Source: Elusimicrobiaceae bacterium (GTDB taxonomy: Bacteria > Elusimicrobiota > Elusimicrobia > Elusimicrobiales > Elusimicrobiaceae). From it: DNA of 54,001 nt. Made by a program: the position numbers and the translations under genes. Shown here piece by piece: positions 7,945-36,228 of the stretch. Under the pieces are notes generated by a model. It made no database searches. It was not told where the DNA came from and saw only the letters and a list, made by a program, of their open reading frames with translations. The stretch lies in the NCBI GenBank assembly GCA_016281355.1, contig JAEEIL010000020.1, forward strand, positions 1 to 54,001, in the 5' to 3' direction. Position 1 is the stretch's first letter; each line of letters begins with the position of its first letter.

Positions 7945-7977
7945 AAACACTAAAAAATAAACTAACGGACGTAAATT

Positions 7978-10900
7978 ATGGCACAAAATATATGTAATAT
8001 TTGCGGAGCGAATTATGAATATAAAAACGGTAAATGGGTGTGTCCCGCTTGCGGAGCGTATAAGCCCGAAGAACTTTCTAACGAAGAAGTTACGCTTTTA
8101 TATAATGCGTCGCAAAAAATAAGGCTCGCGCTGTTTGACGACGCGGAAGAACAGTATAAAGACATTGTATCGAAATACCCTGATAACCCTGACGGTTATT
8201 GGGGACTTGTGCTTGCAAAATACGGTATCAAATACGAACAGGATTACGACGGTAAAATGATCCCGTCCTGTTACGCCGCAAGTTATGAAAGTGTTTTAAC
8301 CGATAAGAATTATCTTAAAGCGATAGAACTCGCAGATAAAGATAATCGCAAGTATTACGAGGAACAAGCAAACAAGATAGAGAAAATCCGCAGAGAGTGG
8401 ATAAATAAGGCAAGCAAAGAAGAGCCTTACGATATTTTTATTTCATATAAAGACACCGAGAAAGAGAACGGCACGGAAAGAACCAAAGACAGTTACGACG
8501 CATTAGAACTTTACACAATGCTGTCTAAACTTGGTTATAGAGTGTTTTACAGCAGAGAATCCTTGAAGGATAAAACGGGCGAAAAATATGAGCCGTACAT
8601 ATTCAATGCGCTTAATACCGCACACATAATGATAGTTTACGGTAGCAAACCCGAATACATAGAATCTACTTGGATTAAAAACGAGTGGATGAGATTTTAT
8701 AAGCGTATCAAACTCGGCAAAAAACAGCCTAATGCGTTGCTCGTAATAAACAACGGTTTTAATCCTGCCGAACTTCCCTCTCCACTTTCCAAAATGCAAA
8801 ATCTTGATAGAAACCGTATTGATTTTTCGAGAGAGTTGGAAAGTTATTGCAAGCGCGTTATTAAAGCGGCAACCACCGTTCTTCCTAAAATCGAGCGTGT
8901 GGAAGTAAAAGCAAAACAAGGCAAAGTCGGTAAGATTGTTAAAATAGAGGCAGTAGAATTAAACAGCAGAACCGTACAAAAAACCGAAATAGTAAGAGAA
9001 GAAGTCGAAAAGCGTGAGATAGGAAACTACACCGTTTCTAAACTTACCGCTAACGCACAAAACGAGCTTAAAATAGCCGAAATGCAATTATCTACCGCTA
9101 ACTTTGACGAAGCGGGAAAGCGATTTAACACGTTCTTATTAAAAAATCCGAAAAACGGACGTGCGCTTACCGGCAAACTTCTTGCCGAAAACAAAAGCAA
9201 GGATTTGGACGGGTTTTCGAGTGTAGGTGTTCAAAATTTTGCCGAATGGAAACTGTTGGAACAAGTTTTATTATTCTCCGAAAAAAGCGTTTCAGGGAAA
9301 ATATTAAAATCGCTGTGCGACGAGATTTTACGCTCATTTAACACGGGCGATTATGGTCGTGCAAGAGACATATATTCGCAGGTGTCGGCTTACGAAGATA
9401 GCGCAGTTACCGAAATGCGTAAATCCGTTTGTGATTTAGCAAAGGGACTTATAGGTAAAAACGACGATACGGCAAAATACTTTATAGACGGGTATCTTTT
9501 ATACGAACAAGACGAAGACAAGTTTTTGTCTCAAATTAGAAACATCGTTGGCATTTCTATTGAAAAAGGCGATTTTAACTTTGCGAAAAAGTATTCCGAA
9601 GACTGGCTGAAATATGAAAACTACGACTTATCGGCAAATTATTCCGCTCTTAAAATCAAATATAAAGTAAAAACGCTAACAGAGTTATTTACCAAAACAG
9701 AAAGCAATAACGCCTATTCAGAAATAGACGAGATTTTACATTGTTTAAATGAAGAATCGGCGGCGGCATGCTTTAAGGATATTTGCGACAGAGTAAATAC
9801 TCTTTTAAGTGCCGATAATTTCGCAAAGCAGGTATATGCCTACATAGACAAGTTCTTCCGATACAACATTAACGGTAGATCAGAAAAGATAAAACAGTTT
9901 TTAACTTTTATTGCGAATAAACCGTCAAAAGAATTCGCTTCCGTATTCGATCTCTTACTTTCTCTTTCAGACTTTAATACGGAAGAATACAGCCTTTACA
10001 CTTTAAAATTTGCTGACAATTCATTAAAGAACGGTGATTTTGACCTTGCCGATAAGTATTACGACAAAGTAAACGAACTGCACGAAACGGCTCTTTCTTG
10101 GGAAGGGAAATTGAAATGCCGTTTAAAAGTCAAAAACGATATAGAATACTCGGCTAATATACAAAACTTAACCGACTTTAAGATTATAGAGAATATTTTG
10201 TCTTTGTCGGAAAACGACGGCAAGCGTTACGAGTTTTTAAGCCGTATTATAGGATACGTTTATTCTGCACTAAAAACGTCTAAAACGGACACGGCAAAAC
10301 TTGTTGCCGTTTTTGAGAATTTGCTTTCTTACGTTCCGAAAGACTTTGACGATAAAATTATCGAGTGGCTGTTTAAGTTTGCACGGTTCTTAAAAAATAA
10401 CGACGAGTTTGATTTAGCAGAAAAACTGTATGCAATAATTATAAATTACGATGCGGAAAACCACGTTGCATATTGGGAAATGTTGCAAGCAAAACTTCGT
10501 TGTAAGGATGAAAACTCGGTTATAAAGCAATATAATCTTATTTCAGACTTCCAAGAGTTCCAAAATGCGCTTGTTGTATCGGCAAAAATAAATTCGGATG
10601 CGTTAAAGCATTATACAAATATCCAACACGAACAAATTAAGTGGATTGAAGAACAAGAAGAATTACAAGTTAAAAATGAGTTAAAAAAACGCAGGGCAAA
10701 AAAACGCAATATTATTATAGCAATAGGTGTAATTGTTGGAATTATAATTGCTTGCACCTGTGTCTTTTGGGGCGTTCAAAGTTATAACCGCAACGAAAGT
10801 AAATTAAGATATAATTCAGTTGATGGGGGACTTTCTGTTCGTGCAGGCAAATATTATACTGCGGAAGAAACGCTTGTTATCCCCTATAAAGTCGATAATA

Positions 10901-13900
10901 AGTTCGTAATTGAAATAAAGGCGTATGCGTTTAAAAACCATACAGAGATAAAGAAAGTAATTTTGCCTATGGCGATAACAAAAATAGGCGACGGAGCTTT
11001 TGAAGGTTGCGTAAATTTAGAAAGCGTTGAATTTAAGGATATATTGGAAGCGAGTGCGAACACACAGGCAAATGCTAATGGAAATAACGGCATAAGTCTG
11101 TTTTCGCCACAAACATTTAACACCGTGAGTTTTGCAACTGTCAACACTACTGATAGTATTAAACTTTCCGTAATCGGAGCAAAAGCGTTTAAGGGGTGTG
11201 AGAAATTACAGACCTTTGAATTAAATTACGGTCTTAAAACAATCGGAGATGAGGCATTTGCAGGGACGGGATTAAAAGAAGTTACTATTCCTAATACAGT
11301 TGCATTTGTTGGCAAAGCCGCTTTTGAAAACTGTAAAGATTTAGTCAATATCGAAGTTGGCGATAAAGATCAAATCTTGCAGACTTGGGATACGGATTGG
11401 AATAAAGGGAATGAGACGAAAGTAAAATATTCGTTCCGTGTATTTTTTAACTATAATGGTGCAGACGTAGAAACAATAATAAACTCCCAACAATTCGTTG
11501 TTTTTGGCAAAACGTATTCTTTTCCTGTGCCTACAAAAACAGGCTATTCATTTGTTGGTTGGTATTTTGGCGACGTAAAATTAACAGACAATAACGGTTT
11601 ATCGCTTAATGTTTGGCATTATCAGGACGGCGGAACTGTAAAAGCTGTATGGGGCAACACTATAGAGTATGCTATCTCTTATAATTTTGGTGGTGGAACA
11701 GTTAAAGAAGCACAAATTCCCAGTGACGCGCTTTTATATAATAATCATTATTACTATATTTATAATACAAATAAAACATGGGAAGAAGCAAAATCGTATT
11801 GTGAAAGTTTAGGCGGGCATTTAGCAACTATTACAAGTAGCGCAGAAAACAATTTCATTGCTACTTATTTAGGTTCAAATTATTATTACATAGGCGGATA
11901 TAAAGATGGTTCAAAGTGGAAATGGGTTACAGGAGAAGAATGGAATTATACTAACTGGAATTCTGGTGAACCGAGTAACCAAAACGGTATTGAAGATAAA
12001 TTAGAATTTTGGACAAATAAAAAATGGAACGATGTTTCAAATGGCGGAACAAATAGACGATTCATCTGTGAATGGGAAACGAGTGATCAAATTATAACAA
12101 CCTATACGATAGAAACAGAAACTTTTGCGTTGCCTGAACTTGCAAAAGAAGGGTATAGTTTTATTGGCTGGACATGGGCGAATAGTGATGTTCCGCAGAA
12201 AAATGTTGTTATTATGAAAGGTTCTTCTGGTAATAAAAAATATATTGCAAATTGGCAAGCAAATGAAAACATTTTGCATTTCGACGCCAACGGCGGTAGC
12301 GGTACGATGGTTGATAAAACGGTTAAGACTGACGCCACAACAACACTACCGACTAACACTTTTACGCGAAGCGGTTATGTTTTCAAGGGCTGGGCAGTAA
12401 GCGAAAACGGAACAAAAGTTTACAATAATGGTGCTTCTTATAAAATGGGGAATAACCCGGAGTACACGCTTTACGCTGTATGGGAAATTGAAATTTATGA
12501 TATAACCTATAATCTTGATGGGGGCATTGTAAGTGGGAATCCATATGGTTATACAATTTATTCAGCAACATTTATTTTAAATAATCCGACAAAAGACGGC
12601 TATACATTTTTAGGGTGGAGCGGTACTGATATTGTTGATAAATCATTTAATGTTACAATTGAACAAGGCTCAGTCGGCAATAGAAATTATTATGCTAATT
12701 TCGGTAAAAATGATAAAAATATTGTTTTGTTAAATATTACCGATAATGGGAATGAGTCCGTAACAGTAAAAGGTTGTGGAAATTCTTATTGTAGGCTACC
12801 TGCTAATACTTTTACTAAGGATGATTATGAATTTAAGGGGTGGAGCTCATCTCAATTCGGGGAAGTCGAATATTACGATAGAGATTTATTTTTCGTCGGA
12901 GAAAACGAAAATTATAACTTATTTGCCGTGTGGGAAGACCGAACAGATTGGATAGCAATATCAACTGCTGAAGAATTTATCAACATAAGAAATGATACAA
13001 CAAAAAAATATTATTTAACAAAAGATATTGACTTAAATGGATATAATTGGGAAACGATAGCGAATTTTAGTGGGATTTTAGATGGTAATGGTAAGGCTGT
13101 TTACAATCTTAATATTGTTAGTCCAAAAGTAATAACAAAATTTGGTCAGGATGGTTATGGTTATCCCGTTTATGAGTTGTCGTATTATTTAGATTTGTTT
13201 TATCAAGGTAATGTTAAAAATTTATCAATAGAATATAATGGCTATTCTTCGAGTTCTTCATATCCTAGAACTGAAAAAAAATATACCACAACATATAAAT
13301 ATTATCTTTATGTTGGTATTGTGTCTGGCGAAAATTGTTACATAATAAATAGGTGTGATGAATTAATAGACAACACGAGTGCAATTATCATTGATAAATC
13401 AATAATGTGTTCAGATGATAATTCTTATGGTAATTATATGTTATACATATATAACAATGATTTCCGTGTTCAAAAAATCAATTCGCACGAAATAGTTGAA
13501 CTAAAACAATGTATGTTTGAAAAACTCGGCTATACGTTTATCGGTTGGACATTGTCTGACGGTGGGGTGGTAAAATATCATGCGGGAGACGAATTTTATA
13601 TCCCAATAGGTAAATCTAATATAACACTTTATCCCGTTTGGCAAGCAAACACCAATGAAGTGATATTTAATGCAAACGGCGGTAACGGAACAATGGCAAG
13701 TCAACAAATGCAAACCGACGTAACCACAGACCTTAATGCAAACACATTTACTAAAATGGGCTATCATTTTATAGGTTGGGCAACTTCCGCTAACGGTACA
13801 GTGGTTTATGAAAACGGCGCGTCTTACACAATGGGGACAAACGCGTCTTACACGCTGTATGCCGTTTGGGAGCAAAACACTAACGAGATCATCTTTAACG

Positions 13901-14112
13901 CCACCAAAGGTAGTGGAACAATGGCAAATCAACAGGCGTTGACCGATACCGTTGTCACGCTTAATCAATGCACTTTCACCGCACCGACAGGGTATTATTT
14001 CGCAGGCTGGTCAGAAGATCCTAACGGGAACGCAGATTATACTGACTGTTCGTCCTTTTCTGTAGGAACAAGCAGTACCTATACGTTATATGCGATTTGG
14101 AAAATGATTTGA
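7978..14112 (+). CDS. Giant membrane-spanning TIR receptor-like protein (LRR, C-type lectin, InlB repeats)
   Basis: 2044 residues. In order: zinc ribbon (C6/C9, C22/C25); helical repeat; TIR domain about 150-300 (DIFISYKDTEKENG..., candidate catalytic E236 in KNEWMRF); TPR-like helices to about 900; a basic stretch KKRRAKKR (903-910) and one membrane helix (about 912-935); then BspA-type LRRs (about 940-1130), InlB/Listeria-Bacteroides repeats, a C-type lectin-like domain (about 1253-1367: SYCESLGGHLATI, WNYTNWNSGEP, RRFICEWE), more InlB repeats, a GLUG-like unit (about 1656-1845: IDLNGYNWE, FSGILDGNGK) and three final InlB repeats ending in YAIWKMI. The positive-inside rule places TIR in the cytoplasm and lectin/LRR outside. 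No sortase motif or second membrane helix is seen. The layout mirrors animal Toll-like receptors, inverted in chain order; that parallel is architectural only. Confidence 0.85.
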   Translation: MAQNICNICGANYEYKNGKWVCPACGAYKPEELSNEEVTLLYNASQKIRLALFDDAEEQYKDIVSKYPDNPDGYWGLVLAKYGIKYEQDYDGKMIPSCYAASYESVLTDKNYLKAIELADKDNRKYYEEQANKIEKIRREWINKASKEEPYDIFISYKDTEKENGTERTKDSYDALELYTMLSKLGYRVFYSRESLKDKTGEKYEPYIFNALNTAHIMIVYGSKPEYIESTWIKNEWMRFYKRIKLGKKQPNALLVINNGFNPAELPSPLSKMQNLDRNRIDFSRELESYCKRVIKAATTVLPKIERVEVKAKQGKVGKIVKIEAVELNSRTVQKTEIVREEVEKREIGNYTVSKLTANAQNELKIAEMQLSTANFDEAGKRFNTFLLKNPKNGRALTGKLLAENKSKDLDGFSSVGVQNFAEWKLLEQVLLFSEKSVSGKILKSLCDEILRSFNTGDYGRARDIYSQVSAYEDSAVTEMRKSVCDLAKGLIGKNDDTAKYFIDGYLLYEQDEDKFLSQIRNIVGISIEKGDFNFAKKYSEDWLKYENYDLSANYSALKIKYKVKTLTELFTKTESNNAYSEIDEILHCLNEESAAACFKDICDRVNTLLSADNFAKQVYAYIDKFFRYNINGRSEKIKQFLTFIANKPSKEFASVFDLLLSLSDFNTEEYSLYTLKFADNSLKNGDFDLADKYYDKVNELHETALSWEGKLKCRLKVKNDIEYSANIQNLTDFKIIENILSLSENDGKRYEFLSRIIGYVYSALKTSKTDTAKLVAVFENLLSYVPKDFDDKIIEWLFKFARFLKNNDEFDLAEKLYAIIINYDAENHVAYWEMLQAKLRCKDENSVIKQYNLISDFQEFQNALVVSAKINSDALKHYTNIQHEQIKWIEEQEELQVKNELKKRRAKKRNIIIAIGVIVGIIIACTCVFWGVQSYNRNESKLRYNSVDGGLSVRAGKYYTAEETLVIPYKVDNKFVIEIKAYAFKNHTEIKKVILPMAITKIGDGAFEGCVNLESVEFKDILEASANTQANANGNNGISLFSPQTFNTVSFATVNTTDSIKLSVIGAKAFKGCEKLQTFELNYGLKTIGDEAFAGTGLKEVTIPNTVAFVGKAAFENCKDLVNIEVGDKDQILQTWDTDWNKGNETKVKYSFRVFFNYNGADVETIINSQQFVVFGKTYSFPVPTKTGYSFVGWYFGDVKLTDNNGLSLNVWHYQDGGTVKAVWGNTIEYAISYNFGGGTVKEAQIPSDALLYNNHYYYIYNTNKTWEEAKSYCESLGGHLATITSSAENNFIATYLGSNYYYIGGYKDGSKWKWVTGEEWNYTNWNSGEPSNQNGIEDKLEFWTNKKWNDVSNGGTNRRFICEWETSDQIITTYTIETETFALPELAKEGYSFIGWTWANSDVPQKNVVIMKGSSGNKKYIANWQANENILHFDANGGSGTMVDKTVKTDATTTLPTNTFTRSGYVFKGWAVSENGTKVYNNGASYKMGNNPEYTLYAVWEIEIYDITYNLDGGIVSGNPYGYTIYSATFILNNPTKDGYTFLGWSGTDIVDKSFNVTIEQGSVGNRNYYANFGKNDKNIVLLNITDNGNESVTVKGCGNSYCRLPANTFTKDDYEFKGWSSSQFGEVEYYDRDLFFVGENENYNLFAVWEDRTDWIAISTAEEFINIRNDTTKKYYLTKDIDLNGYNWETIANFSGILDGNGKAVYNLNIVSPKVITKFGQDGYGYPVYELSYYLDLFYQGNVKNLSIEYNGYSSSSSYPRTEKKYTTTYKYYLYVGIVSGENCYIINRCDELIDNTSAIIIDKSIMCSDDNSYGNYMLYIYNNDFRVQKINSHEIVELKQCMFEKLGYTFIGWTLSDGGVVKYHAGDEFYIPIGKSNITLYPVWQANTNEVIFNANGGNGTMASQQMQTDVTTDLNANTFTKMGYHFIGWATSANGTVVYENGASYTMGTNASYTLYAVWEQNTNEIIFNATKGSGTMANQQALTDTVVTLNQCTFTAPTGYYFAGWSEDPNGNADYTDCSSFSVGTSSTYTLYAIWKMI

Positions 14113-17422: not shown

Positions 17423-18910
17423 TTATATTAAGCTTATTAATTTTTGCCAAATTTTTACCATCGCAAACGTGTCGAGTTCGCAGTATTTCAGCAGGTTTTT
17501 GCGGGCGATAGACTGTTCTTCTTTCGGCATGTCTTTTATAAGTGGGAAAATTGTCATCGCTTCCGAGCCGTTATGTACCCCGTCTAAATTATGATAGTTA
17601 AGCGACGGATCGTCGGGGAATATGGCGGGTAAGACGCTTTTAATCGAGAAAGAACCACCCATAGCCTTATTATAGTAATATCCTTTTTGAAAGGGGACTA
17701 ACAGGTCTTTTATGTTTCTTTCGATATTAAGTAAATGCTTGGACAGGTCGGGGAATATCTCGGCAAGTTCTTTTATCCTTCCGCATTCAAATTTTTTGTT
17801 GTATGCAAGAGTGCAGACGTTCATAGGAATATTTGCACACAGGCTTTCCGCAATAGCACGCAAAGGATTTTCACCGGATTCTGCTAAAAATTCTTTATGC
17901 TTTAAGGGCGCGCCTTCGCTTTCGATATAATGCAAAGAGTACTGGAACGGTATCTGTTGATACGGTCTTGTTCCGTCGAATTGCGGAATAACCGATTGCA
18001 TCGTTTCAAAATCAAGGAAATATAAGGGATACGACAAGGTGTCTAAAAACTTTTTTATACCGTCTTTCTTTATATACGTTCCCTTATCGTGTAGATAGTA
18101 GTCGATTTGTCGCGTTTGCTTATAATCCAAATGCCCGTGTTTTTCTAATTCTTCAAAAGAAATAATGCCGTCGTTATAGTACTTGAATTTTTTACCTATT
18201 CCCAAGCGGTAAACGTCAAAAACGTTCGGCGTAGGTAGATGCTTGGTGCAGTATTTCCAGTATGCGCAAGAATAAGGCGACGTGCATTTATCTGATATGT
18301 CTATATTCGGTTCAGTTTCGTTATTTAAGATTTCGTCTGCACATTTCAGGTTTTCTTCGATTTTGTCATATTCTTCCTGTAATAATCCGCTGACGTCCTG
18401 AATGAAAAACAATTCTTTAACGTTTATATCGCCGTGCCTTACGTATTTATTATTAATGTTTACAAGGTACGTGCCGGTAACCGTAATGCCGCTTTTTTCA
18501 AGCACGTATTTCTGATACGCAACGTCCACTAAATAAATATAGTTCAGGTGGGTACTGCTTTTTATTTCATAAATAGCGTAGCCGCCTTTTTCTTTGTGCA
18601 GTATATCTACCGCGCAATATAATCCGTTATAAGAAAAAGCCGCTTCGCAGATATTTTCCGTGCCTTTTGCCACTTCGTCAGCCGTCTTTTGTATCATAGC
18701 CGAATAATCGAGATGGTTGTCTTCTGACAGCGTGGTAGTTTCAACAAAATTGCCGAACAGCGTCATTGCAAGGTCGCCTACTTCGTTGCCTGTCGATAGT
18801 CTTGCGGCAAGGGAAGTGTCAATCTCTTTTTCTTCGGGTTTGAATTTATCAAGCCAAGTGATTTTGGGGCATTGCCAAAAACTGCAATATTTGGATTTGC
18901 TGAAAAACAT
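17423..18910 (-). CDS. DUF2779 nuclease-like protein
   Basis: 495 residues. The N-terminal half resembles Cas4/RecB-type PD-(D/E)XK proteins: a first Cys pair (YCSFWQCPK), the core GYAIYEIKSST (E-x-K) and a Cys cluster CTSPYSCAYWKYC typical of an iron-sulfur nuclease. The C-terminal half is the DUF2779 domain, with YFLDFETMQ resembling motif I of DEDD exonucleases, and LKYCELDTFAMVKIW at the end. It is transcribed leftward from its own promoter, divergently from the WYL gene and convergently with the operon to its left. The substrate is unknown; nucleic acid cleavage is inferred from the two folds. Confidence 0.75.
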   Translation of the reverse strand: MFFSKSKYCSFWQCPKITWLDKFKPEEKEIDTSLAARLSTGNEVGDLAMTLFGNFVETTTLSEDNHLDYSAMIQKTADEVAKGTENICEAAFSYNGLYCAVDILHKEKGGYAIYEIKSSTHLNYIYLVDVAYQKYVLEKSGITVTGTYLVNINNKYVRHGDINVKELFFIQDVSGLLQEEYDKIEENLKCADEILNNETEPNIDISDKCTSPYSCAYWKYCTKHLPTPNVFDVYRLGIGKKFKYYNDGIISFEELEKHGHLDYKQTRQIDYYLHDKGTYIKKDGIKKFLDTLSYPLYFLDFETMQSVIPQFDGTRPYQQIPFQYSLHYIESEGAPLKHKEFLAESGENPLRAIAESLCANIPMNVCTLAYNKKFECGRIKELAEIFPDLSKHLLNIERNIKDLLVPFQKGYYYNKAMGGSFSIKSVLPAIFPDDPSLNYHNLDGVHNGSEAMTIFPLIKDMPKEEQSIARKNLLKYCELDTFAMVKIWQKLISLI

Positions 18911-18961: not shown

Positions 18962-19000
18962 CTAATTTGTCAGTTCGCTTTATATGATAATTCTTTTTAT

Positions 19001-19033
19001 GTCCCGAAAAAGGTGCGTTGAGTATGGTATTTA
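19001..19033 (+). promoter_or_regulatory. Shared GTCC-N10-GCRT-N9-(-10) element, copy 1
   Basis: GTCC (19001-19004), N10, GCGT (19015-19018), N9, then TATTTA in the -10 position. It lies upstream of the WYL regulator gene and has the same spacing as three other copies at 19102, 23440 and 24101. This copy is the weakest. Confidence 0.5.
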
Positions 19034-19101
19034 TAAAATATATATCGTTCAGAAAAAAATTATTTATTATAGGTTTAATAGGTGTGTTGCCAAGTATGAT
19101 T

Positions 19102-19134
19102 GTCCTTTTTTTGTCGCATTTGTTTTGTTAAAAT
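19102..19134 (+). promoter_or_regulatory. Shared GTCC-N10-GCRT-N9-(-10) element, copy 2
   Basis: GTCC (19102-19105), N10, GCAT (19116-19119), N9, TAAAAT (19129-19134), 63 bases before the WYL start codon. No good -35 box is present, so the motif probably replaces or covers it. Confidence 0.6.
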
Positions 19135-19196
19135 TATTGCGCCGACAAAAAATTTATGATAAAATATATTCATTGAATTTAAGGCGGTATTTTATC

Positions 19197-20219
19197 GTGA
19201 AAGACGTCGAACCTAAAAAACTTGCAATAGTAAGGATATTGCAGATTTTAGAACAATACAGCGATTTCGACCACCCATTAACGCAAGATGAAATTTTAGA
19301 CAAACTAGCAAGTCTTTACGGCATAGAACTTGAAAGAAAGGCAGTCGGCAAAACGATTGCCATTTTGCAAGATATGTTTGATAAAGATTCTGTGCTTAAA
19401 AGTCCTTCGAGCGCAATAGTTTTAGAATCCAACAAGCGCAGAGGCACTTATTTCGATAAAAGGCTGTTTGAAGATGCGGAAATACGCCTACTTATAGACA
19501 GTGTTTTAGCGAGTAAGCATATTTCCGAAAAGTATTCGGCGGATTTAATCGAAAAACTGTGTATGCTTTCTAACAAGTATTTTTTATCGCACGTCAAACA
19601 TATTTGTTCCGTTAAGGACTGGGATAAAACGGATAACAAATCTCTCTTTTATAATATAGAAACGATTGACGCGGCGATAGAAAAGGGACGGCAGATAAGG
19701 TTCGATTACAATAAATTCGGCACGGATAAAAAATTGCATAAATCCGCAACACACGTCGTAAGCCCATATCAGTTGATTTTACATAATCAAAGATACTACC
19801 TTATGTCTTTAAGCGAGAAGTGGAAAAATATGGGGTATTTCAGACTTGATAAAATTACCAACGTCGAAATTTTAGAAGATACGCCCATAACTCCGCTGCG
19901 TTCGGTAGAAGGTTATAAAAACGGCGTCGATTATAAAAAGATAGCGTCTTCACTACCGTATATGTTTACGGATAAAATAGAAAAAATAGAGTTTCTTGCC
20001 GAAGAATGGATGGTAGACCACGTTATAGACTGGTTCGGCACGGGTGCGAAGTTTGAAAAGGCGGCGGACGACAAGGTTAAAGTAACGGTAACTGCAAGCC
20101 CCAACGCTATGGAATACTGGGCGATGCAATATCTTAATTCCGTAGAAATTCTTACTCCCACAGAATTACGCGAAAGAATTAAGCAAAACATAGAGAACGC
20201 AAATAAGAGATATGAATAA
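19197..20219 (+). CDS. WYL-domain transcriptional regulator
   Basis: 340 residues from a GTG start: a winged-helix N-terminus (about 8-75: LTQDEILDKLASLYGIELERKAVGKTIAIL), a WYL domain in the middle (IRFDYNKFG, VVSPYQLILHNQRYYLMSL, FRLDKITNVEIL) and a C-terminal WCX extension. WYL proteins such as BrxR/CapW repress phage-defence operons and sense nucleic-acid ligands. A longer frame extends to 18984, but it would run through the two promoter-like elements, so GTG 19197 (after AAGGCGG) is preferred. It heads the rightward defence cluster and is a likely binder of the GTCC-N10-GCAT motif. Confidence 0.85.
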   Translation: MKDVEPKKLAIVRILQILEQYSDFDHPLTQDEILDKLASLYGIELERKAVGKTIAILQDMFDKDSVLKSPSSAIVLESNKRRGTYFDKRLFEDAEIRLLIDSVLASKHISEKYSADLIEKLCMLSNKYFLSHVKHICSVKDWDKTDNKSLFYNIETIDAAIEKGRQIRFDYNKFGTDKKLHKSATHVVSPYQLILHNQRYYLMSLSEKWKNMGYFRLDKITNVEILEDTPITPLRSVEGYKNGVDYKKIASSLPYMFTDKIEKIEFLAEEWMVDHVIDWFGTGAKFEKAADDKVKVTVTASPNAMEYWAMQYLNSVEILTPTELRERIKQNIENANKRYE

Positions 20220-20248
20220 GCAATTATAAAGAGGCAAAAGAGAAATAT

Positions 20249-21514
20249 ATGGCTTATATAATGAGTATCAAAGACATTCTCCAATTAAACTTAGACATCC
20301 CAAGTTTTCAAAGACCTTATAAATGGCAGAATAGAAATGTTATTGAATTATTAGAGGATATATATATTGCTATTCAAGAAAGCAAAAAATACGACGCATA
20401 TAAATACAGAATAGGTACTATTATTTTATTTGATAATGTGAAAAAGGATACAAAGGATGTTATTGATGGTCAACAGCGGTTGTTTTCGCTTGCTATGATA
20501 TCTTATTATTTGAATACAAAATTTACTTGCTCTTTACTGGACATGAATTGTAGCAATAAAATAACACGATTCAATCTCCATCAAAATTATAAATGTATTA
20601 AAAATTGGTTTAATTTTAAAAATGATTTTTTAAAAGAAGATTTTAGGTATGCCTTGGAAAAGGTTTTAGAGGTGGTAGTAATCACTGTAGATAAATTATC
20701 AAGTGCTTTTCAACTTTTCGATTCTCAGAATACAAGAGGAAAAGCTTTGGACCCACATGATTTATTGAAAGCATATCACCTTCGCGAAATGAAAAATGAT
20801 CCTTATGAAATGTATCATGCAGTAGGGAAGTGGGAGTCGTTTCAACCAAACGACATAAGCAATCTGTTTGATGTTTTTTTATTTCCGATATTAAATTGGG
20901 CAAGAAGAGAGAAAACGCAAAAGTTTTCAACTAAGCAAATAGATTATTACAAAGGCATATCAGACATTTCAAGTTATACATATGCAAAAAGAGCAAGAAA
21001 GGCTAATCCGTATTTTCAAATAACTGAGCCATTTATATCTGGTAATGATTTCTTTGAAATGGTAGCTCATTATCTAGTACTACTTGAAGATATTGAAAGA
21101 GAAATAGACAAGAACGAAGCTTTTGATAAAATTAAAAAAATAATTAATAGTGATAATTCAGTTGGTTTTAATTATACAGTAGATTTGTTTAAATGTGTGT
21201 TATTGTGCTATTATGATAAATTCCACAACTTTGATGAACAAGCAGTAAAGAAATTATTTATTTGGGCATTTATGCTTAGAGTTGATATGGAGAATTTAGG
21301 TTTTGATAGCATCAATAAATATGCTTCTGGCGATTTTAACTATGATAAATACACCAATAATATTCCTATGTTTTCACTAATTGTAAATTCACGATTCCAT
21401 ACTGATGTTTCAAATTTATTAATCAATGTTACGCGCGAAAATAATCATGCGCGTGCAAACAAATGGGATAAATTGTATAAAGAATTAAAAAGCATGAATG
21501 GTATGGAGAAATAG
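20249..21514 (+). CDS. DUF262 protein, N-terminal-type partner of a GmrSD-like pair
   Basis: 421 residues. The DUF262 domain occupies about 1-190: IPSFQRPYKW, the signature VIDGQQRLFSL (ParB/sulfiredoxin-like NTP-binding fold) and FQLFDSQNTRGKALDPHDLLKAYHLR. The C-terminal half is helical and lacks the HNH (DUF1524) nuclease of full-length GmrSD, which the next gene supplies. GmrSD-type enzymes are NTP-dependent, modification-directed restriction systems. The next start codon lies 1 base beyond its stop, so the two are co-translated. The gene is noticeably AT-rich relative to the WYL gene. Confidence 0.8.
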   Translation: MAYIMSIKDILQLNLDIPSFQRPYKWQNRNVIELLEDIYIAIQESKKYDAYKYRIGTIILFDNVKKDTKDVIDGQQRLFSLAMISYYLNTKFTCSLLDMNCSNKITRFNLHQNYKCIKNWFNFKNDFLKEDFRYALEKVLEVVVITVDKLSSAFQLFDSQNTRGKALDPHDLLKAYHLREMKNDPYEMYHAVGKWESFQPNDISNLFDVFLFPILNWARREKTQKFSTKQIDYYKGISDISSYTYAKRARKANPYFQITEPFISGNDFFEMVAHYLVLLEDIEREIDKNEAFDKIKKIINSDNSVGFNYTVDLFKCVLLCYYDKFHNFDEQAVKKLFIWAFMLRVDMENLGFDSINKYASGDFNYDKYTNNIPMFSLIVNSRFHTDVSNLLINVTRENNHARANKWDKLYKELKSMNGMEK

Positions 21515-21515
21515 C

Positions 21516-23387
21516 ATGAATAATGTAATTGAAAAATTAGGATTATATGGTAAAAAACATTCTTTATTTAATGAAAAAGACAAATATGTCGTTCCCCTAT
21601 ACCAAAGGGCGTATTCTTGGACCGACAAAGAAATAGAACAGTTAATAGATGATATAAATGATTTTACCGATGATAATTATTATCTTGGTTCATTAATTGT
21701 TTATAAAAAAGGAAACACATATGAGGTGATAGATGGTCAGCAAAGATTGACAACTTTGTTTATTCTTTTTAAATATTTAGAATTAAATAATTTTAATTCA
21801 CTATCATTTGAGTGTAGAGATAAGTCTAATTACACTTTAACGCATTTATGTCAATCTGATGTTGAAGATACTATGTTAGAAAATGGAATTATAAATGGGT
21901 ATAAGGTTATTAGTCAAAAGATTGAAAGAGATGTTGATAAAGAAAAATTTAAAAATAAGTTATCAAATATAATTATTTATAGAATAGAAGTGCCGGAGCA
22001 TACGGACTTGAATAGATACTTTGAAATAATGAATACTCGTGGTGAGCAACTTGAACAACACGATATTTTAAAAGCACAATTGATGGGCTATTTAAAAGAT
22101 ACTAAAGAAAGAGATGCTTTCGCTATGATTTGGGATGCTTGTGCCGATATGACAGGATATGTTCAAATGCATTTTCCAAGGAATATAAGGGATGATATAT
22201 TTGGCGGATATTGGGAATACTTAAAGAGCGATAATATTTTTTCACTTGTTAGTAATGTAATTGATAAGAAAAAATCAAAAGGCGATATAAAAGTTAAAGA
22301 TGTATTAAAACCTAATTTTTTTGTTGATCCAGTGGGCGATTTTGAAGATAAAGACGAACGGATTAGATTTGATAGCATAATTGAGTTTACATATTTTTTA
22401 CAACATGTATTACGAGTGTTTATTAATAAAACTTCAATAGAGCACGTTAAAAATGAAAATATAGTTAAAGAACTATTAGATGATAAAAAACTGATTGATA
22501 GTTTTACCAATGTTATAGAAAACGGGTTAATCAATGGAAGTACTATAGACAAACGAAAGTTTGCAATGGACTTTATTAATTGCTTAATAAAATGTAGATT
22601 TTTATTTGATAAGTACATTTTAAAACGGGAATATCCTTTAAACGATCGTGAGGGAGTATGGAGTATTAAATCTTTAAAAACATCTGGGCAACAATCTCAA
22701 AAAAAACCATATTATTATAATACTATATTCCATAATAAAAATGAACGGGAATCTACATATGCACCCAGAAACACATTGAATGTTATGATTCAATCATGCT
22801 TAAGGGTGTCTTATACATCTCCAAAAATTATGCATTGGATTACACAGTTGCTGATTAGGCTTTACGACATAAAAAATGAAAATGAGCTGGTTGACTTTCA
22901 TAAAGATGGTGAAAAAATTGCAAAAGAAGCAATAAAAAAAGATTTCTTTAACAAATGTGAATCGGGAGATAATCATACATATCAAATGGGAGTTAATACA
23001 CCGCATATTGTTCTAAACTACTTGGATTACTTACTTTGGAAGAATGACAAGAATAAATATAAAGAGTTTATTTTTGAATTTAGAAATTCAGTTGAACACT
23101 GGTATCCGCAGCATCCTTCAGATGGTACTTTCCCTAAATGGGAAGAGGGCGTAGATAGATTTGGAAATCTATGTATTATTCAGCGCAGTATTAATTCTAA
23201 ATTTTCAAACATGGCTCCTGAAGCAAAAAAGAGCACTTATAAAGAAATGATAGCTAAAGGAAGTTTAAAATTACGATTGATGGCTAGTGCTACAAATTCA
23301 AGTAAGGATTGGAAGGATGAGGGCTGTGCTATCCATGAAGGCACAATGATAGATTTACTTAGGGATAATGTATATGAAATTACATAA
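21516..23387 (+). CDS. DUF262-DUF1524 (GmrSD-like) restriction protein
   Basis: 623 residues. DUF262 at the N-terminus (VPLYQRAYSW, EVIDGQQRLTTLFIL, IMNTRGEQLEQHDILKAQL), a long helical middle, and a C-terminal DUF1524/HNH-like part (FRNSVEHWYPQHP...RFGNLCII). In GmrSD the DUF262 half binds and hydrolyses NTP and the HNH half cuts DNA bearing modified cytosines. The first His of the HNH core is in VEHW. ATG 21516 is chosen; an earlier in-frame start overlaps the previous gene. It is probably one complex with the upstream protein. Confidence 0.8.
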   Translation: MNNVIEKLGLYGKKHSLFNEKDKYVVPLYQRAYSWTDKEIEQLIDDINDFTDDNYYLGSLIVYKKGNTYEVIDGQQRLTTLFILFKYLELNNFNSLSFECRDKSNYTLTHLCQSDVEDTMLENGIINGYKVISQKIERDVDKEKFKNKLSNIIIYRIEVPEHTDLNRYFEIMNTRGEQLEQHDILKAQLMGYLKDTKERDAFAMIWDACADMTGYVQMHFPRNIRDDIFGGYWEYLKSDNIFSLVSNVIDKKKSKGDIKVKDVLKPNFFVDPVGDFEDKDERIRFDSIIEFTYFLQHVLRVFINKTSIEHVKNENIVKELLDDKKLIDSFTNVIENGLINGSTIDKRKFAMDFINCLIKCRFLFDKYILKREYPLNDREGVWSIKSLKTSGQQSQKKPYYYNTIFHNKNERESTYAPRNTLNVMIQSCLRVSYTSPKIMHWITQLLIRLYDIKNENELVDFHKDGEKIAKEAIKKDFFNKCESGDNHTYQMGVNTPHIVLNYLDYLLWKNDKNKYKEFIFEFRNSVEHWYPQHPSDGTFPKWEEGVDRFGNLCIIQRSINSKFSNMAPEAKKSTYKEMIAKGSLKLRLMASATNSSKDWKDEGCAIHEGTMIDLLRDNVYEIT

Positions 23388-23439
23388 GAACTCTCGAAAT
23401 CTTGTTAAACTATGATAAAAAACAGTTTTAAGTTAAAAT

Positions 23440-23507
23440 GTCCTAAAAAAGACGCATAGGATTTAATAAAATAATGGCGGAAGGGAAAATTCCGTCATTA
23501 TTTATTT
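23440..23507 (+). promoter_or_regulatory. Shared GTCC-N10-GCAT-N9-(-10) element, copy 3, with hairpin
   Basis: GTCC (23440-23443), N10, GCAT (23454-23457), N9, TAAAAT (23467-23472), followed directly by a hairpin AATGGCGGAA...TTCCGTCATT and a T-rich stretch. The hairpin could end transcription of the DUF262 pair or act as an attenuator for the HD gene. Confidence 0.55.
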
Positions 23508-23520
23508 TAAATGAGAAATT

Positions 23521-24090
23521 ATGCAAAGTAAATTAGATAAAGCGATTGAGTATGCGGTGAGTGCGCATAGTGGGGCGACAAGAAAGGGGACGGATATACC
23601 GTTTATACTTCATCCGCTTGAAGCGCTTACGATAGCAAGCACCTTAACGCACGACGTAGACGTGTTATGCGCGGCTGTATTGCACGACACGGTCGAAGAT
23701 ACCGACACAACCATAGACGATATAAAAGCAAATTTCGGCAAATCGGTTGCCAAATACGTTTTGTTTGAGAGTGAAAACAAAAGGAAAGGTGTTCCCGAAT
23801 CGGAGTCTTGGAAGACAAGAAAAATCGAGACATTAAATTTACTTAATAAAGCGGATATAAACGAACAGATTTTGGTGCTTTCCGATAAACTTGCAAACAT
23901 GAGAGCGATATATCGGGATTATCAAACGCTTGGCGACAAGTTGTGGGAAAGATTTAACGTTAAAGAAAAACAAGAACACGCTTGGTATTACGGAGAAATT
24001 GCAAAAAGGTTGAATTTGCTGTTTGGAACGCTTTCCTATAAAGAATACGCCAAATTGTTTGAAAAAGTCTTCGGCAAAATTAACGGATAA
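23521..24090 (+). CDS. HD-domain small alarmone hydrolase-like protein (Mesh1/SpoT-like)
   Basis: 189 residues. It has the HD-domain pattern of the RelA/SpoT hydrolase and Mesh1 families: AHSGATRKGTDIPFILHPLEA (H16, H31), AAVLHDTVEDTD (H55, D56, E59, D60) and LVLSDKLANMRAIYRD. No synthetase, TGS or ACT domain is present. Such enzymes remove the 3'-pyrophosphate of (p)ppGpp or related nucleotides. Placed between a restriction pair and an AAA protein, it may clear a signalling nucleotide made during defence; that role is inference. Confidence 0.8.
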   Translation: MQSKLDKAIEYAVSAHSGATRKGTDIPFILHPLEALTIASTLTHDVDVLCAAVLHDTVEDTDTTIDDIKANFGKSVAKYVLFESENKRKGVPESESWKTRKIETLNLLNKADINEQILVLSDKLANMRAIYRDYQTLGDKLWERFNVKEKQEHAWYYGEIAKRLNLLFGTLSYKEYAKLFEKVFGKING

Positions 24091-24100
24091 CCCTTTTTAC

Positions 24101-24133
24101 GTCCCGAAATTGTCGCATTTGATATTATATAAT
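24101..24133 (+). promoter_or_regulatory. Shared GTCC-N10-GCAT-N9-(-10) element, copy 4
   Basis: GTCC (24101-24104), N10, GCAT (24115-24118), N9, TATAAT (24128-24133), with the same spacing as copies 1-3. It lies 11 bases after the HD gene stop codon. Confidence 0.6.
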
Positions 24134-24175
24134 AATGGCAGAAAGCAAAAATAACTTTCTGCCATTATTTTTTTA
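24131..24175 (+). terminator. Terminator/attenuator hairpin after promoter element 4
   Basis: A stem AATGGCAGAAAG/CTTTCTGCCATT is followed by ATTTTTTTAC. The stem starts at the -10 box, so it can terminate read-through from the HD gene and may also attenuate the new transcript. Confidence 0.65.
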
Positions 24176-24189: not shown

Positions 24190-26199
24190 ATGAGATTTTA
24201 TCAGGTAGAAGTCAAATCAAACAATAACCCTTACGACGTTGAGAATTTAACTCGCGACAAAGAGCGTGAATTGAACAGTAAAACATGTAAATTAACAATG
24301 GAGTACTCCGAAGAAACCTATCTTGAAAAAGGTTTGGCTTTCATAAGCGGGATCAATCCGATTGTTATTTCAGCCTGTATCTTGAACGATAAGTCAGAAG
24401 TTAAAGACCTCGTTAAAACTCTTCTTAAAAAAATGGAAATTGAGTTTACGGCGCTACTCGTTAAGGAAATTTCCATGTCAATATTTTTTGCGGATCTAAC
24501 TTCTGCCGACAGAGGCGGCAGAATAGAAGACGACTGGTCGTTTGCCTGTTCGTTGGGGCTTGACGATTTTTTCAATCAGGGTAGGCACAGTAACAACTAT
24601 TCCGATAGGGTTGTTGAAGAAAAGAAAACGGTAAGCGACTTAAAAAAAGACGCAGAAGACAATTTTTTAGGCTTGCAATATACGAACGAACTTAACAGAA
24701 TATTAAAGTGTAAAACGCGGACGAAATTCGTCGGACATCCGGCGCATTATATTATCGTATCCAAAAACGGCGATCATAGGAGAATTATGACACGGGATAT
24801 GATTGCCGCACTCTATAAAAAAGGCAGATTGCCGTCTAAACGTTATACGATAGTCGATATTTGCGACAGGGATTACAGTAGTTATTTTCTTGAAAAAATA
24901 TATAAAATCAACGAAGGCGCAACCGTTATGCTTAAAGTCAATGCGGAAGACGTTGAAAACGACGGTTTTAAAAGGCGAGGGCTTAATATTGACGATATAT
25001 GTAAAATCGTCAAAGACAACTGTTCCAAAGTTCTGACGATTTTTTCCATCGATTCCGGTTCGCAAATGTTAAAGGATAAAATAATGAACGAACTTCTCGG
25101 TGTGACTGTCGTTGATATTTCCGAAGATATTTACCATAAAGACAGCGCGGTTAAACTTATTACGAATTTCGCCGAAAGGGACGGACTGACTGTAAGCGAA
25201 GATTTTATTGAAAAAATAAAGAACTCTGAAAGAACTTACGAGTTTGACGATATTTTAGGTATATATAACAAATGGCGACACGAATATCTCGGCACTACGG
25301 TCTTTACCGAATATAAAAAATTCGTCACTCACGAAGTCGAAAAAACCGACGAAATAAAGTCCGATGCATATAAAGAACTGCAAGAGATGATAGGACTTTC
25401 GGGGGCAAAAACGCTTATAAACGGAGTTATAAATTTCTTTAAAATGCAAAAAGAATACAGATTAAGGGGCTTGGAATTCAAGCGTCCGTCTATGCATATG
25501 GTTTTTACGGGAAGTCCGGGAACTGCAAAAACCAGCGTGGCAAGACTTGTCGCAAGAATTCTTAAAGACAACGGCGTTCTTTCGGTCGGTAATTTAATAG
25601 AAGTCGGCAGGGCAGATATTATAGGGCAGTATCTCGGGCAAACCGCACCGCTTGTAAAAGAAACTTTTGCAAGAGCGAAAGGTTCGGTTTTGTTTATAGA
25701 CGAAGCCTATTCTCTCATTGACGACAGAAAAGGGTTATACGGCGACGAAGCGATAAACACGATAGTTCAGGAAATGGAAAATCACCGTGACGATGTGATA
25801 GTTATCTTTGCAGGGTATCAAAAAGAGATGCAAGAGTTTTTAGAAAGAAACCCTGGCTTAAATTCGCGTATAGCCTTTCATATCCCGTTTGAAGATTATT
25901 CTTCCCAAGAACTTTTAGATATAACCAAACTTATCGCTAAAAACACGGGTTTTTCGATTGACGGAAAGGCCGACGGAAAACTGTTGAAAATATTTGACGA
26001 CGTAAGATCCGACGAATCCTTCGGCAACGGTAGATTTGCGAGAAACTTAATCGAAAAAGCCAAAATGCACCAAGCCGATAGGCTTATAAAACAAGATTTG
26101 CAATTTGTTTCCGACAAAGAAATGACGACTTTAATCGCCGAAGACTTTGATATGCCCGAAGTAGCCCAGCCGAAAGTCAGGTTAGGTTTTACCGTATGA
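24190..26199 (+). CDS. CbbX/SpoVK-family AAA ATPase with unknown N-terminal region
   Basis: 669 residues. Residues 1-385 belong to no family I recognise (mixed alpha/beta). The C-terminal AAA module is of the CbbX/EccA/SpoVK type: Walker A GSPGTAKT (441-448), IGQYLGQT, Walker B VLFIDEAYSL, and FAGYQKEMQEFLERNPGLNSR. The Walker A motif has Ala before Lys (TAKT), seen in this family. These ATPases remodel or inactivate protein partners. The next gene follows after 10 bases and encodes a degenerate RecF-like protein, probably its partner. Confidence 0.75.
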   Translation: MRFYQVEVKSNNNPYDVENLTRDKERELNSKTCKLTMEYSEETYLEKGLAFISGINPIVISACILNDKSEVKDLVKTLLKKMEIEFTALLVKEISMSIFFADLTSADRGGRIEDDWSFACSLGLDDFFNQGRHSNNYSDRVVEEKKTVSDLKKDAEDNFLGLQYTNELNRILKCKTRTKFVGHPAHYIIVSKNGDHRRIMTRDMIAALYKKGRLPSKRYTIVDICDRDYSSYFLEKIYKINEGATVMLKVNAEDVENDGFKRRGLNIDDICKIVKDNCSKVLTIFSIDSGSQMLKDKIMNELLGVTVVDISEDIYHKDSAVKLITNFAERDGLTVSEDFIEKIKNSERTYEFDDILGIYNKWRHEYLGTTVFTEYKKFVTHEVEKTDEIKSDAYKELQEMIGLSGAKTLINGVINFFKMQKEYRLRGLEFKRPSMHMVFTGSPGTAKTSVARLVARILKDNGVLSVGNLIEVGRADIIGQYLGQTAPLVKETFARAKGSVLFIDEAYSLIDDRKGLYGDEAINTIVQEMENHRDDVIVIFAGYQKEMQEFLERNPGLNSRIAFHIPFEDYSSQELLDITKLIAKNTGFSIDGKADGKLLKIFDDVRSDESFGNGRFARNLIEKAKMHQADRLIKQDLQFVSDKEMTTLIAEDFDMPEVAQPKVRLGFTV

Positions 26200-29088: not shown

Positions 29089-30441
29089 ATGCAAAACGAA
29101 GTATTATTCAGTAAAATGTTTGTTGGCAGTTATAACGACGACAATATAGGTCACGAAGTTATCAATTTTTTTAAACCGGACAACTCAGAAAATAGTTTTT
29201 TATATATTCCACCATACGGAAACATATCCGAAAAACTGTACAGGAATATAAAGCACGTGGTTTTATTGGGTGCACCCGTAAGATATGCGTATCCGGTTAT
29301 TGCGATTGCAACAAACGTAAAGTGTTTTGAAAATGACGACGATCGAAAAAAACAAGAAGACGATATAAAATATTGTGGTGTTTCGGTTAATAAAATAAAT
29401 TATACGGGAACTATGCCGGGTGATCCGAACTGGTTTTTGACGTATATAGTTGCAAAAGATAGTATAAAGTGCCCGTTAAAAGAGGACAAGTATTACGTAG
29501 TCCCAAAATCGGATAATAAATTCAGCGAAGAAGAACATAAAAGTGTAATAGAAAAATTAGAAAAGAATGGCGGTAAGGTTTTAGATGTTGAAGTAAATCC
29601 GCAAAGAAAATATACAAGTTGCCTTTGTGTGGAATATTTGGAAAAAGTCATAGAAAATTGGGATGTTTATCCGTTAAAAACAGTTGAAGAGGCAAAAAAG
29701 GAGGTTTCCAACTATAAAGATGATAATTTCTTAAATTTTTGTGGAAAAACAAACGATGAGATCGTTTTTTCTAATATGATTTGTAATATTCTAAATCATA
29801 AACATGCAGATGAACATGCAGATGCAGAATACAGACAAAAATTTGTACGGGAGATTTTTGGAGTAGAATCAAGCATTGATTTTTCGGTAGAGAAAGAAGT
29901 TTTAAGTCTTACAAAAAGTCAAAGGCTTATTAAACAATATTTTGGTGAGGGGAACAGCGCACTAAAAGAACAAGCAAAAAAGAAACTTAAAGATTGCTAT
30001 GGAATAGATATTGCTCTGTATAAAGAAAATCCTTTTAAAAAACAAAATGGGCGAATAGATTTATTGATTAAAAACAATGAGAAAATTATAGTAGTCGAAA
30101 ATAAAATCAAATCTTCTATAAACGGTATTTTTGAAGATGGTGATGAAATAAAAAATCAACTGGACAAATACAAAGAATATATCAGATACTACAAAAAAGA
30201 GGAAACCGAATATAGTCACGCAAAAGATACCTACTTTATTTTTGCACCGGTTTACAATTCTGACTTTGATATTTTAGGTTGTAAGATAATAACCTATGAT
30301 AAACTCGTTAAATTTTTTGAAAAAAACAAGATACCTGACTGTGAGTTTTTTGATGAGTTTTTAAATGGTCTGAAAAAACATTCCTTGACACGTCAGCAAG
30401 AAATAACGCGAAGATTTATAAATGTACTAAAACAAAAATAA
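29089..30441 (+). CDS. PD-(D/E)XK nuclease-family protein
   Basis: 450 residues. The C-terminal part (about 225-450) is a PD-(D/E)XK module of the PDDEXK_4 kind: GRIDLLIKN (D324) followed by IIVVENKIKSS (E337, K339), an intact D...ExK core, then QLDKYKEYI. The N-terminal 220 residues are a separate alpha/beta domain with no family I recognise. A good ribosome binding site (AGGAGAAGAAA) precedes the ATG. The terminator at 30465 closes the unit. Likely a DNA endonuclease of a defence cassette, together with the 77-residue protein before it. Confidence 0.7.
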   Translation: MQNEVLFSKMFVGSYNDDNIGHEVINFFKPDNSENSFLYIPPYGNISEKLYRNIKHVVLLGAPVRYAYPVIAIATNVKCFENDDDRKKQEDDIKYCGVSVNKINYTGTMPGDPNWFLTYIVAKDSIKCPLKEDKYYVVPKSDNKFSEEEHKSVIEKLEKNGGKVLDVEVNPQRKYTSCLCVEYLEKVIENWDVYPLKTVEEAKKEVSNYKDDNFLNFCGKTNDEIVFSNMICNILNHKHADEHADAEYRQKFVREIFGVESSIDFSVEKEVLSLTKSQRLIKQYFGEGNSALKEQAKKKLKDCYGIDIALYKENPFKKQNGRIDLLIKNNEKIIVVENKIKSSINGIFEDGDEIKNQLDKYKEYIRYYKKEETEYSHAKDTYFIFAPVYNSDFDILGCKIITYDKLVKFFEKNKIPDCEFFDEFLNGLKKHSLTRQQEITRRFINVLKQK

Positions 30442-30464
30442 GTTTTTAATTAAGATGCATATTA

Positions 30465-30492
30465 GATGCGACAAATTCGTCGCATCTTTTTT
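30465..30492 (+). terminator. Intrinsic terminator
   Basis: A perfect 8-bp stem GATGCGAC/GTCGCATC with a 6-base loop, followed by TTTTTTG, lies 24 bases after the stop codon of the PD-(D/E)XK gene. A TATAAT at 30500-30505 follows and may start the next unit. Confidence 0.8.
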
Positions 30493-30578
30493 GTTATTAT
30501 ATAATCGAACCTATGATATATCAAATTTAAAAACCGACAAATCAAAACAATCTCAAAAAAATATAGGAGTAAAAAAAT

Positions 30579-31274
30579 ATGGAAAAGAAAGTAAAAAGAT
30601 TAAACCGTTCTAAACTTGCTTTTAATTTTAAGTCGGCACAAAAAATAATGTCGGGGCAAGAAGTGATTGAAGAAATGAAACGCTTTACCGATAATAACGG
30701 TGTGCTTTATATTCCGAATCACGACGATATTTCTGACGATAATTTAGTTTACTACCGCCTTAAAATGGATTATAGCAAAGCAGATGAAAAAGCCTTTATT
30801 TCAGATGCGGATAATCTCGTTAAAAACATATACGACATTTTTACGTTATGTAAAAAGGTAAAAATCGACAGTGAAGTTTTTTTATCACAGGAGAATAAGG
30901 CAAAAAGCGTATTGCCGCAAAACCTTTTTGAAACGTGGAATACGTATATCCGCGATCTCGAAGTAAAAGGTTTTGACGATCATTTAGTAAAAATCATGTG
31001 CGGGCAAGAAGTTTATATTACGGATAAACATTTGTCGAAGGAAGAAATCGCAATATGGCATAAATACATGGCGGCTAAAAAGGTAGAAGCCGCTAAAAGA
31101 ATAGGGAGGGGAGTAGCGGCATACACCGTGATAGCAAGAGCGCAAAGACTTTTGATAATATTAGAATTGGGTGCGCCTGAAATAATACTCAATAACGAGA
31201 CTAACGATCTTATTATCAGTTTGGCAATTCACCGTTTTGCAAAAACGAAAACCGCCGTAGAAAAGATAGTATAA
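30579..31274 (+). CDS. Unknown protein (231 aa)
   Basis: No family recognised. Mostly helical; the central VKGFDDHLVKIMCGQEVYIT is similar to the small protein at 28825, and the region KRIGRGVAAYTVIARAQRLLIILELGAP is hydrophobic and could form a buried hairpin rather than a membrane segment. Ribosome binding site TAGGAGTAAAAAA. It starts after a terminator and a TATAAT box, so it is probably the first gene of the unit that includes the small membrane protein and the exonuclease-like protein. Confidence 0.6.
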   Translation: MEKKVKRLNRSKLAFNFKSAQKIMSGQEVIEEMKRFTDNNGVLYIPNHDDISDDNLVYYRLKMDYSKADEKAFISDADNLVKNIYDIFTLCKKVKIDSEVFLSQENKAKSVLPQNLFETWNTYIRDLEVKGFDDHLVKIMCGQEVYITDKHLSKEEIAIWHKYMAAKKVEAAKRIGRGVAAYTVIARAQRLLIILELGAPEIILNNETNDLIISLAIHRFAKTKTAVEKIV

Positions 31275-31494: not shown

Positions 31495-31983
31495 ATGAAT
31501 ATATATTTTAATATAGAAACTTCGGGCTTATCCGTCGGAGAAGAAGGCAAAAAAGACGCACGGATATTAAGTATTACCGCTATTAAAACCGACGGCGATA
31601 TACTCATAGATAAGTTTGCCACGTTCGTTGCGTGCGGGGAATATCTGCCGAAATACGTTCGGGAGATTACGGGCATAAGCAATACGCTGCTTAAAGGCGC
31701 GCCGAGAACGAAAACGGCGTTAAAATATTTTAAGGAGTTTGCGGGGAATAATACGCTTATTTCATACCATATTGCATTTGATATGAGTTTTCTGAAATTC
31801 TACGGTGCAAAATACGGGATAAAGTTCGACAATCCGCAAATAGATTTGTTGCCTTTGGCAAAGAAACAACTTAACGGCAAGGTGCCGGATTTCAGTATTA
31901 AAACGGTTTCGGACTTTTTCGGCATCTCGCTCAATCAATCGGACGTAGATATTATCTACGAAATAGGCAAAGTTTTGTTATAA
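31495..31983 (+). CDS. DnaQ-like 3'-5' exonuclease, probably inactive
   Basis: 162 residues of the RNase T/DnaQ (DEDD) fold. Motif I reads FNIETSG: the first catalytic Asp is Asn (N6) while E8 is kept. Motif II YHIAFDMSFL keeps the Asp. Motif III, normally HRAxxDA, reads NQSDVDI, so the general-base His is lost while an Asp remains. PKYVREITGISNTLL and PQIDLLPLAK match the family between motifs. Loss of two catalytic positions suggests a nucleic-acid-binding rather than cutting role. Directly behind the small membrane protein. Confidence 0.7.
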   Translation: MNIYFNIETSGLSVGEEGKKDARILSITAIKTDGDILIDKFATFVACGEYLPKYVREITGISNTLLKGAPRTKTALKYFKEFAGNNTLISYHIAFDMSFLKFYGAKYGIKFDNPQIDLLPLAKKQLNGKVPDFSIKTVSDFFGISLNQSDVDIIYEIGKVLL

Positions 31984-35524: not shown

Positions 35525-35600
35525 GAAAACAGGATTAACCGTGTTATGGTGGTAAAGTGAACAGTGAAGTTTTTTCAGAAGACTTTTTAGGAGAAAATAA

Positions 35601-36221: not shown

Positions 36222-36228
36222 ACCTATT

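Follow-up and report, generated by a model that had tools for sequence, protein, structure and literature searches.

What regulates the promoters around a WYL-domain gene in an Elusimicrobiaceae genome, and does the WYL protein turn its neighbours on or hold them off? The question is raised by a stretch of 54,001 nucleotides (contig JAEEIL010000020.1, positions 1 to 54,001; hereafter the window). A sequence-only reading of this DNA had described one promoter element, lacking a -35 box, at positions 19001, 19102, 23440 and 24101, and had proposed a likely regulon with autoregulation by the WYL protein.

Promoter elements in the window

All four elements were found where they had been described. 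In its strict form, GTCC-N10-GCRT-N9-TANNNT, the pattern has three matches in the window, where 0.02 are expected and none of 100 shuffled sequences reached three, and the genome-wide scan that the reading called for found it once more outside the window in the 1.5-Mb genome. The copy at 19001 falls outside the strict pattern because its forward -10, TATTTA, fails TANNNT. Among 60 relatives of the host genome the strict pattern and its reversed control occur at similar frequencies, and GTCC/GCRT is therefore a local variant and not a general motif; the literal pattern has three matches across 47 WYL loci of relatives.

Each element lies at the heart of an imperfect inverted repeat of 20 bp, such as ACGTCCCGAA-ATTGTCGCAT, which begins two nucleotides ahead of the quoted position (18999, 19100, 23438 and 24099) and of which GTCC and GCRT are outer parts. 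We learned a 20-bp palindrome matrix by expectation-maximisation from approximately 200 bp upstream of 45 WYL homologues, with the window excluded. Its log-likelihood was 128, as compared to 47–59 in shuffles, and its consensus is close to TTGTACCAAATTTGGTACAA. Noise in the window peaks at 11.7 bits; the sites at 18999 and 24099 score far above this, that at 19100 is about at noise level, and that at 23438 is below it (Table 1). The matrix added a fifth site, at 30466, which is the best in the window and reads ATGCGAC-N6-GTCGCAT.

In all five window operators a TANNNT hexamer lies exactly 9 nucleotides away. In the window, four operators score above 11 bits and have N9-TANNNT on one side or the other; 200 shuffles gave a mean of 0.13 and a maximum of one. 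Whole-genome matches to a degenerate operator-N9-TANNNT pattern with at most one mismatch are confined to the window, where there are four. One further site, at 4569 (17.7 bits, N9-TAAATA), was dismissed, as it lies inside a TIR-LRR gene, where it codes for part of a zinc ribbon (CPVCGA).

Table 1. Predicted promoters and associated genes in the window (scores are from the palindrome matrix).
Feature	Position	Strand	Remarks
Cas4-like/DUF2779 nuclease gene, predicted target	17423–18910	-	Pfam DUF2779 and Cas4; next to WYL in about a dozen relatives
Operator 18999–19018, N9, -10 TATCAT at 18984–18989	18984–19018	-	Predicted leftward promoter of Cas4/DUF2779 gene; 16.3 bits; at most one mismatch to degenerate pattern
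Operator 19100–19119, N9, -10 TAAAAT	19100–19134	+	Predicted to drive WYL and probably both GmrSD-type genes; 11.2 bits
WYL regulator gene, 340 aa	19197–20219	+	Pfam WYL and WCX; start GTG 19197, not ATG 18984
GmrSD_N/DUF7834 gene	20249–21514	+	Probably co-transcribed with WYL
GmrSD_N/GmrSD_C gene	21498–23387	+	Probably co-transcribed with WYL
Operator 23438–23457, N9, -10 TAAAAT	23438–23472	+	Predicted HD gene promoter; 5.3 bits, exact spacing; HD homologue in L047 with same promoter type
HD_4 gene, RelA/SpoT-type hydrolase domain, predicted target	23521–24090	+	
Operator 24099–24118, N9, -10 TATAAT	24099–24133	+	Predicted AAA gene promoter; 17.4 bits; AAA homologues in L036 and L037 with same promoter type
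Gene for 669-aa protein with SpoVK/CbbX-type AAA domain, predicted target	24190–26199	+	
Operator ATGCGACAAATTCGTCGCAT, N9, -10 TATTAT	30466–30500	+	Predicted promoter of 30579 gene; 18.9 bits; zero mismatches to degenerate pattern
231-aa gene, predicted target	30579–31274	+	No Pfam or NCBIfam match

Genes downstream of the sites

Two copies had been placed before the WYL gene. This holds for the one at 19100, whereas the one at 18999 has its exact N9-TATCAT on the minus strand and faces the Cas4-like gene. With one directed leftward and the other rightward, each with N9-TANNNT, the pair would thus form back-to-back promoters of the divergent Cas4/DUF2779 and WYL genes. The copies assigned to the HD gene and the CbbX-type AAA gene do precede them, both with N9-TANNNT. 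Homologues of the 30579 gene occur under the same promoter type at four loci of relatives (L020, L021, L026 and L033), and the HD and AAA genes also have such homologues; this therefore provides independent support for 23438, 24099 and 30466. Site 23438 is weak by the matrix, and its assignment as a promoter rests on its spacing, its likeness to the other window sites, and the homologous target in L047.

In the promoters of the HD and AAA genes, long terminator-like hairpins (23469–23503 and 24131–24169) start immediately at the -10 and have the stem letters AATGGCRGAA in common. We considered them as regulatory leaders and rejected this, as the predicted transcription start falls inside the 5' arm; terminators of the upstream transcript are therefore likelier, and the hairpins are probably such terminators overlapping the next promoter. 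At 30464–30487, 22 nucleotides past the stop of the gene at 29089–30441, the operator itself makes up the stem of a hairpin that resembles a terminator and runs into T6, and here one sequence may serve as both operator and terminator.

In relatives, the genes under such promoters encode FtsH-like AAA/M41 proteins (five), DnaB-like helicase domains (five), and SNF2-type helicases (three), with HD, ADP-ribosylglycohydrolase, and LRR proteins and a DNA polymerase III alpha fragment as further targets. In one of them (L027) the WYL gene is followed by a pair of the same GmrSD-type genes. As judged from the predicted proteins, the mix of targets in the window and in relatives fits a damage or phage response.

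The window also encodes two TIR proteins with LRR_5 repeats (4549–14112), one of which is 2044 amino acids long and also carries C-type lectin and Listeria-Bacteroides repeats. The region from 34538 to 50486 encodes Fic and Abi_2 proteins, a PLD/SNF2 helicase adjoining a type IIG-like methylase, a resolvase, a ThsB-like TIR protein, a DUF4365 protein, and a phage-type integrase, and looks like a mobile defence island.

The WYL protein and its homologues

An RBS-like AAGGCGG lies upstream of the GTG at 19197, and 40 homologues aligned at full length have the common start MxxxEPKKLA, which therefore places the start of the WYL gene at this codon. The protein model (pLDDT 83, pTM 0.54) has a winged helix-turn-helix (residues 7–86), a helical region (93–163), a WYL domain (165–230), and a WCX domain (246–340). 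Pfam, the model, and the fold comparison thus agree on the one-chain wHTH, WYL, and WCX arrangement of the DriD/SiwR type. In a profile search the only solved relatives were DriD (chains at E of approximately 1e-5, in the WYL-WCX part only) and PafC, which places DriD among the kin of the WYL protein by sequence. In the fold comparison DriD, PafBC, BrxR, and CapW lead, with Z of 10–12 and a large rmsd because the domains are oriented differently. R216 is invariant in the family alignment and K/R219 is basic; by analogy, this RLDR/K sequence would be the counterpart of R204/R207 of SiwR, which makes its basic residues candidates for binding single-stranded DNA.

A PafBC-type pair or fusion of two WYL subunits was not found at this locus, which encodes one 340-aa protein. 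The gene is also the only close copy in the host genome, where a search for a second WYL protein gave no match at E 0.001. We found homologues at 47 loci in other bacteria, for the most part in metagenome assemblies of Clostridia; identity is 47–63% for nearly all of them. None was found in viral contigs. Even a distant match is present in just five of 234 other genomes of the host's own class, which suggests horizontal acquisition. At one locus (L056, 5998–7437) the WYL regulator is fused with an RNase_T (DEDD exonuclease) domain; a separate RNase_T gene is found in the window at 31495–31983.

A fixed distance between operator and -10

We examined the spacing in a held-out set of 61 operators above 13 bits, which lie outside the training stretches in 46 homologous loci of relatives. 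TANNNT occurs exactly 9 nucleotides from the operator edge in 48 of the 61, including 19 cases of TATAAT. Other offsets have 2.8 cases on average and never more than 10; offset 8 has one case and offset 10 none. Altogether, 85 operators above 13 bits are present in the relatives' loci, compared with nine in Markov controls. If the -10 hexamer is taken as -12 to -7, the operator extends from -41 to -22. A logo of 61 promoters of this kind in relatives, hereafter type A, has T-R-T-G ahead of the -10, which is an extended -10. A -35 box is absent from them: the best hexamer at 16–18 nucleotides never has more than three of six matches. A two-fold operator of approximately 20 bp at a constant distance from the -10, with a poor -35, is thus found here as in DriD/SiwR-type homodimeric WYL activators.

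The geometry is kept before unrelated genes while the flanks and most spacer positions are unconserved. The downstream genes belong to about 30 unrelated sequence families, and the spacing is therefore not accounted for by promoters descending together with their genes; that promoter cassettes were copied is a less likely source of its recurrence. Complementary arms that extend the operators show a mild excess at the first four positions, with runs of at least six in five of 59 sites. At three sites (L026 2636–2675, L021 7737–7774 and L022 8429–8464) the inverted repeat is 8–10 bp longer per side, with a different sequence each time.

A second geometry, type R, is present in relatives. Ten operators are associated with a TTGACA-like -35 (four to six of six matches) and a 17-nucleotide spacer, and in all ten the -10 starts at exactly operator position 16. 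Nine precede a WYL gene and one precedes a Cas4/DUF2779 gene (L021). This is the layout of a repressor and, from the position of the operator, implies that WYL would repress its own gene in those relatives. The trait changes at least four times on the WYL protein tree, on which L049 and L062 were additionally called type R by eye. Type R sites are absent from the window, and no operator overlapping or downstream of the -10, as in BrxR and CapW, was found there; its operators end 9 nucleotides before the -10.

Association of the sites with the WYL gene

We compared sites in 121 genomes of one family, of which 15 have a WYL homologue at E below 1e-40 and 106 do not, with counts tallied by hand. 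The WYL-bearing genomes have 24 matches (1.6 per genome) and the others 31 (0.29 per genome), the latter close to the reversed control (0.32 per genome). Two of the 15, the sample seeds G236 and G235, carry most of the matches and several WYL-bearing genomes have none, so the comparison of exact matches is fairer: five of 15 WYL-bearing genomes have one, as compared to one of 106. In genomes reached via their loci, the matches cluster on the WYL contig (e.g. G236:C5, G237:C12 and G235:C10).

Activation or repression

The sequence comparisons support well a regulon with autoregulation, as the reading had proposed: the same operator lies upstream of WYL homologues, its spacing is fixed before about 30 families, homologues of the HD, AAA, and 30579 genes are found under it, and genomes that have no close WYL homologue contain the sites in background numbers only. 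Details of the proposal needed correction, since the 18999 copy faces the Cas4-like gene and the fifth site, 30466, lay outside the interval considered. On sequence and by analogy, we consider it probable that the sites are WYL binding sites, with the WYL protein most likely a DriD-like homodimeric activator of the island promoters.

WYL regulators have been divided into repressors of defence genes and activators responding to genotoxic stress (PMC10693628). DriD of Caulobacter crescentus has a 20-bp site that overlaps the -35 and is kept at one distance from the -10 (PMC12340889). DriD is the closest solved relative by sequence, and the predicted operator position in the window matches this layout. 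Both proteins have the wHTH, helical region, WYL, and WCX domains. Both sites are 20-bp pseudopalindromes over a degenerate -35, where the constancy of the distance to the -10 is compared and not its value in nucleotides, and the DriD half-site ATACGAC resembles ATGCGAC of site 30466 (PMC12340889). However, identity is about 20% over the fold, the DriD half-sites are 7 nucleotides apart (in a 21-bp consensus) rather than 6, and its targets are scattered genes whereas those in the window are clustered in an island; for DriD no autorepressor layout is reported, in contrast to type R of the WYL relatives (PMC12340889). SiwR of Mycobacterium smegmatis is likewise a single WYL activator of adjacent genes, and acts through an imperfect palindrome of 19 bp ahead of the -10, but it is actinobacterial and has one target operon, as opposed to five promoters in the window (PMC10693628). 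PafBC also activates promoters without a normal -35. However, it is a heterodimer that requires RNA polymerase for binding and has a single site near -24 to -26, whereas the window has one WYL gene and two-fold operators.

Promoters with an extended -10 can be active in the absence of an activator, and the protein bound at this position could therefore instead be a repressor. The WYL protein could then be a repressor throughout, where the promoters are constitutive and a bound dimer blocks the polymerase until a signal arrives. BrxR and CapW of defence islands do repress (PMC9122601, PMC9122588), and both are WYL regulators of defence genes with inverted repeats of approximately 20 bp, whose use of operators type R resembles; however, their own sites overlap or follow the -10 (PMC9122601, PMC9122589, PMC9122588). 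Type R in relatives, in which the operator covers the -10 of a consensus promoter, has a repressor's layout as well. Nevertheless, a steric block needs no base-exact spacing, yet there is hardly a case at offset 8 or 10; the target promoters are without a -35; and DriD and SiwR, with comparable layouts, both activate. We therefore regard repression throughout as unlikely. The reading had taken WYL as a defence regulator. A sequence-supported regulon in a defence island agrees with this, but the geometry points to activation and not to the repression known for defence WYL proteins.

It is improbable that another regulator or an alternative sigma factor acts at these sites, with the WYL gene as just one of its targets. 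A fixed -10 without a -35 could define an alternative promoter class, and the WYL gene is common to the loci by construction. However, the -10 is of the housekeeping type (TATAAT), the two-fold palindrome ahead of it fits a dimer, and where a genome lacks a close WYL homologue the sites do not exceed background. A recurrence by chance, or by copying of promoter DNA on which no regulator acts, suggested by the background numbers of the literal pattern in host-genome relatives, is highly improbable given the enrichment in the window (strict pattern, and operators above 11 bits against shuffles), the geometry kept before unrelated genes amid unconserved flanks and spacers, and the held-out spacing, which speaks strongly against it.

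With WYL as an activator, a homodimer would bind the inverted repeat in place of the missing -35 and help the housekeeping RNA polymerase to use a -10 at exactly the fixed distance. It would thereby drive its own operon, with the two GmrSD-type genes, and the divergent Cas4/DUF2779, HD, AAA, and 30579 genes. In some relatives, where a consensus promoter has its spacer and -10 covered by the operator, the same WYL would repress its own gene. The signal may be single-stranded DNA from damage or phage attack; this, like WYL binding and activation, is what we infer. Somewhat tentatively, one WYL protein with a single operator in two exact placements may be both an activator of defence and repair genes and, in some lineages, a self-repressor; together with its sites it would be a self-contained response module, passed between distant bacteria, which switches defence genes on rather than derepressing them.

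The locus thus has a regulator in a defence island with the predicted layout of an activator, and base-exact promoters of the same kind recur in many Clostridia genomes, with dozens of related gut bacteria sharing the layout. This layout makes it testable whether bacteria switch such genes on upon DNA damage or infection, and the operator matrix would allow unknown genes, such as the 30579 family, to be assigned to that response.
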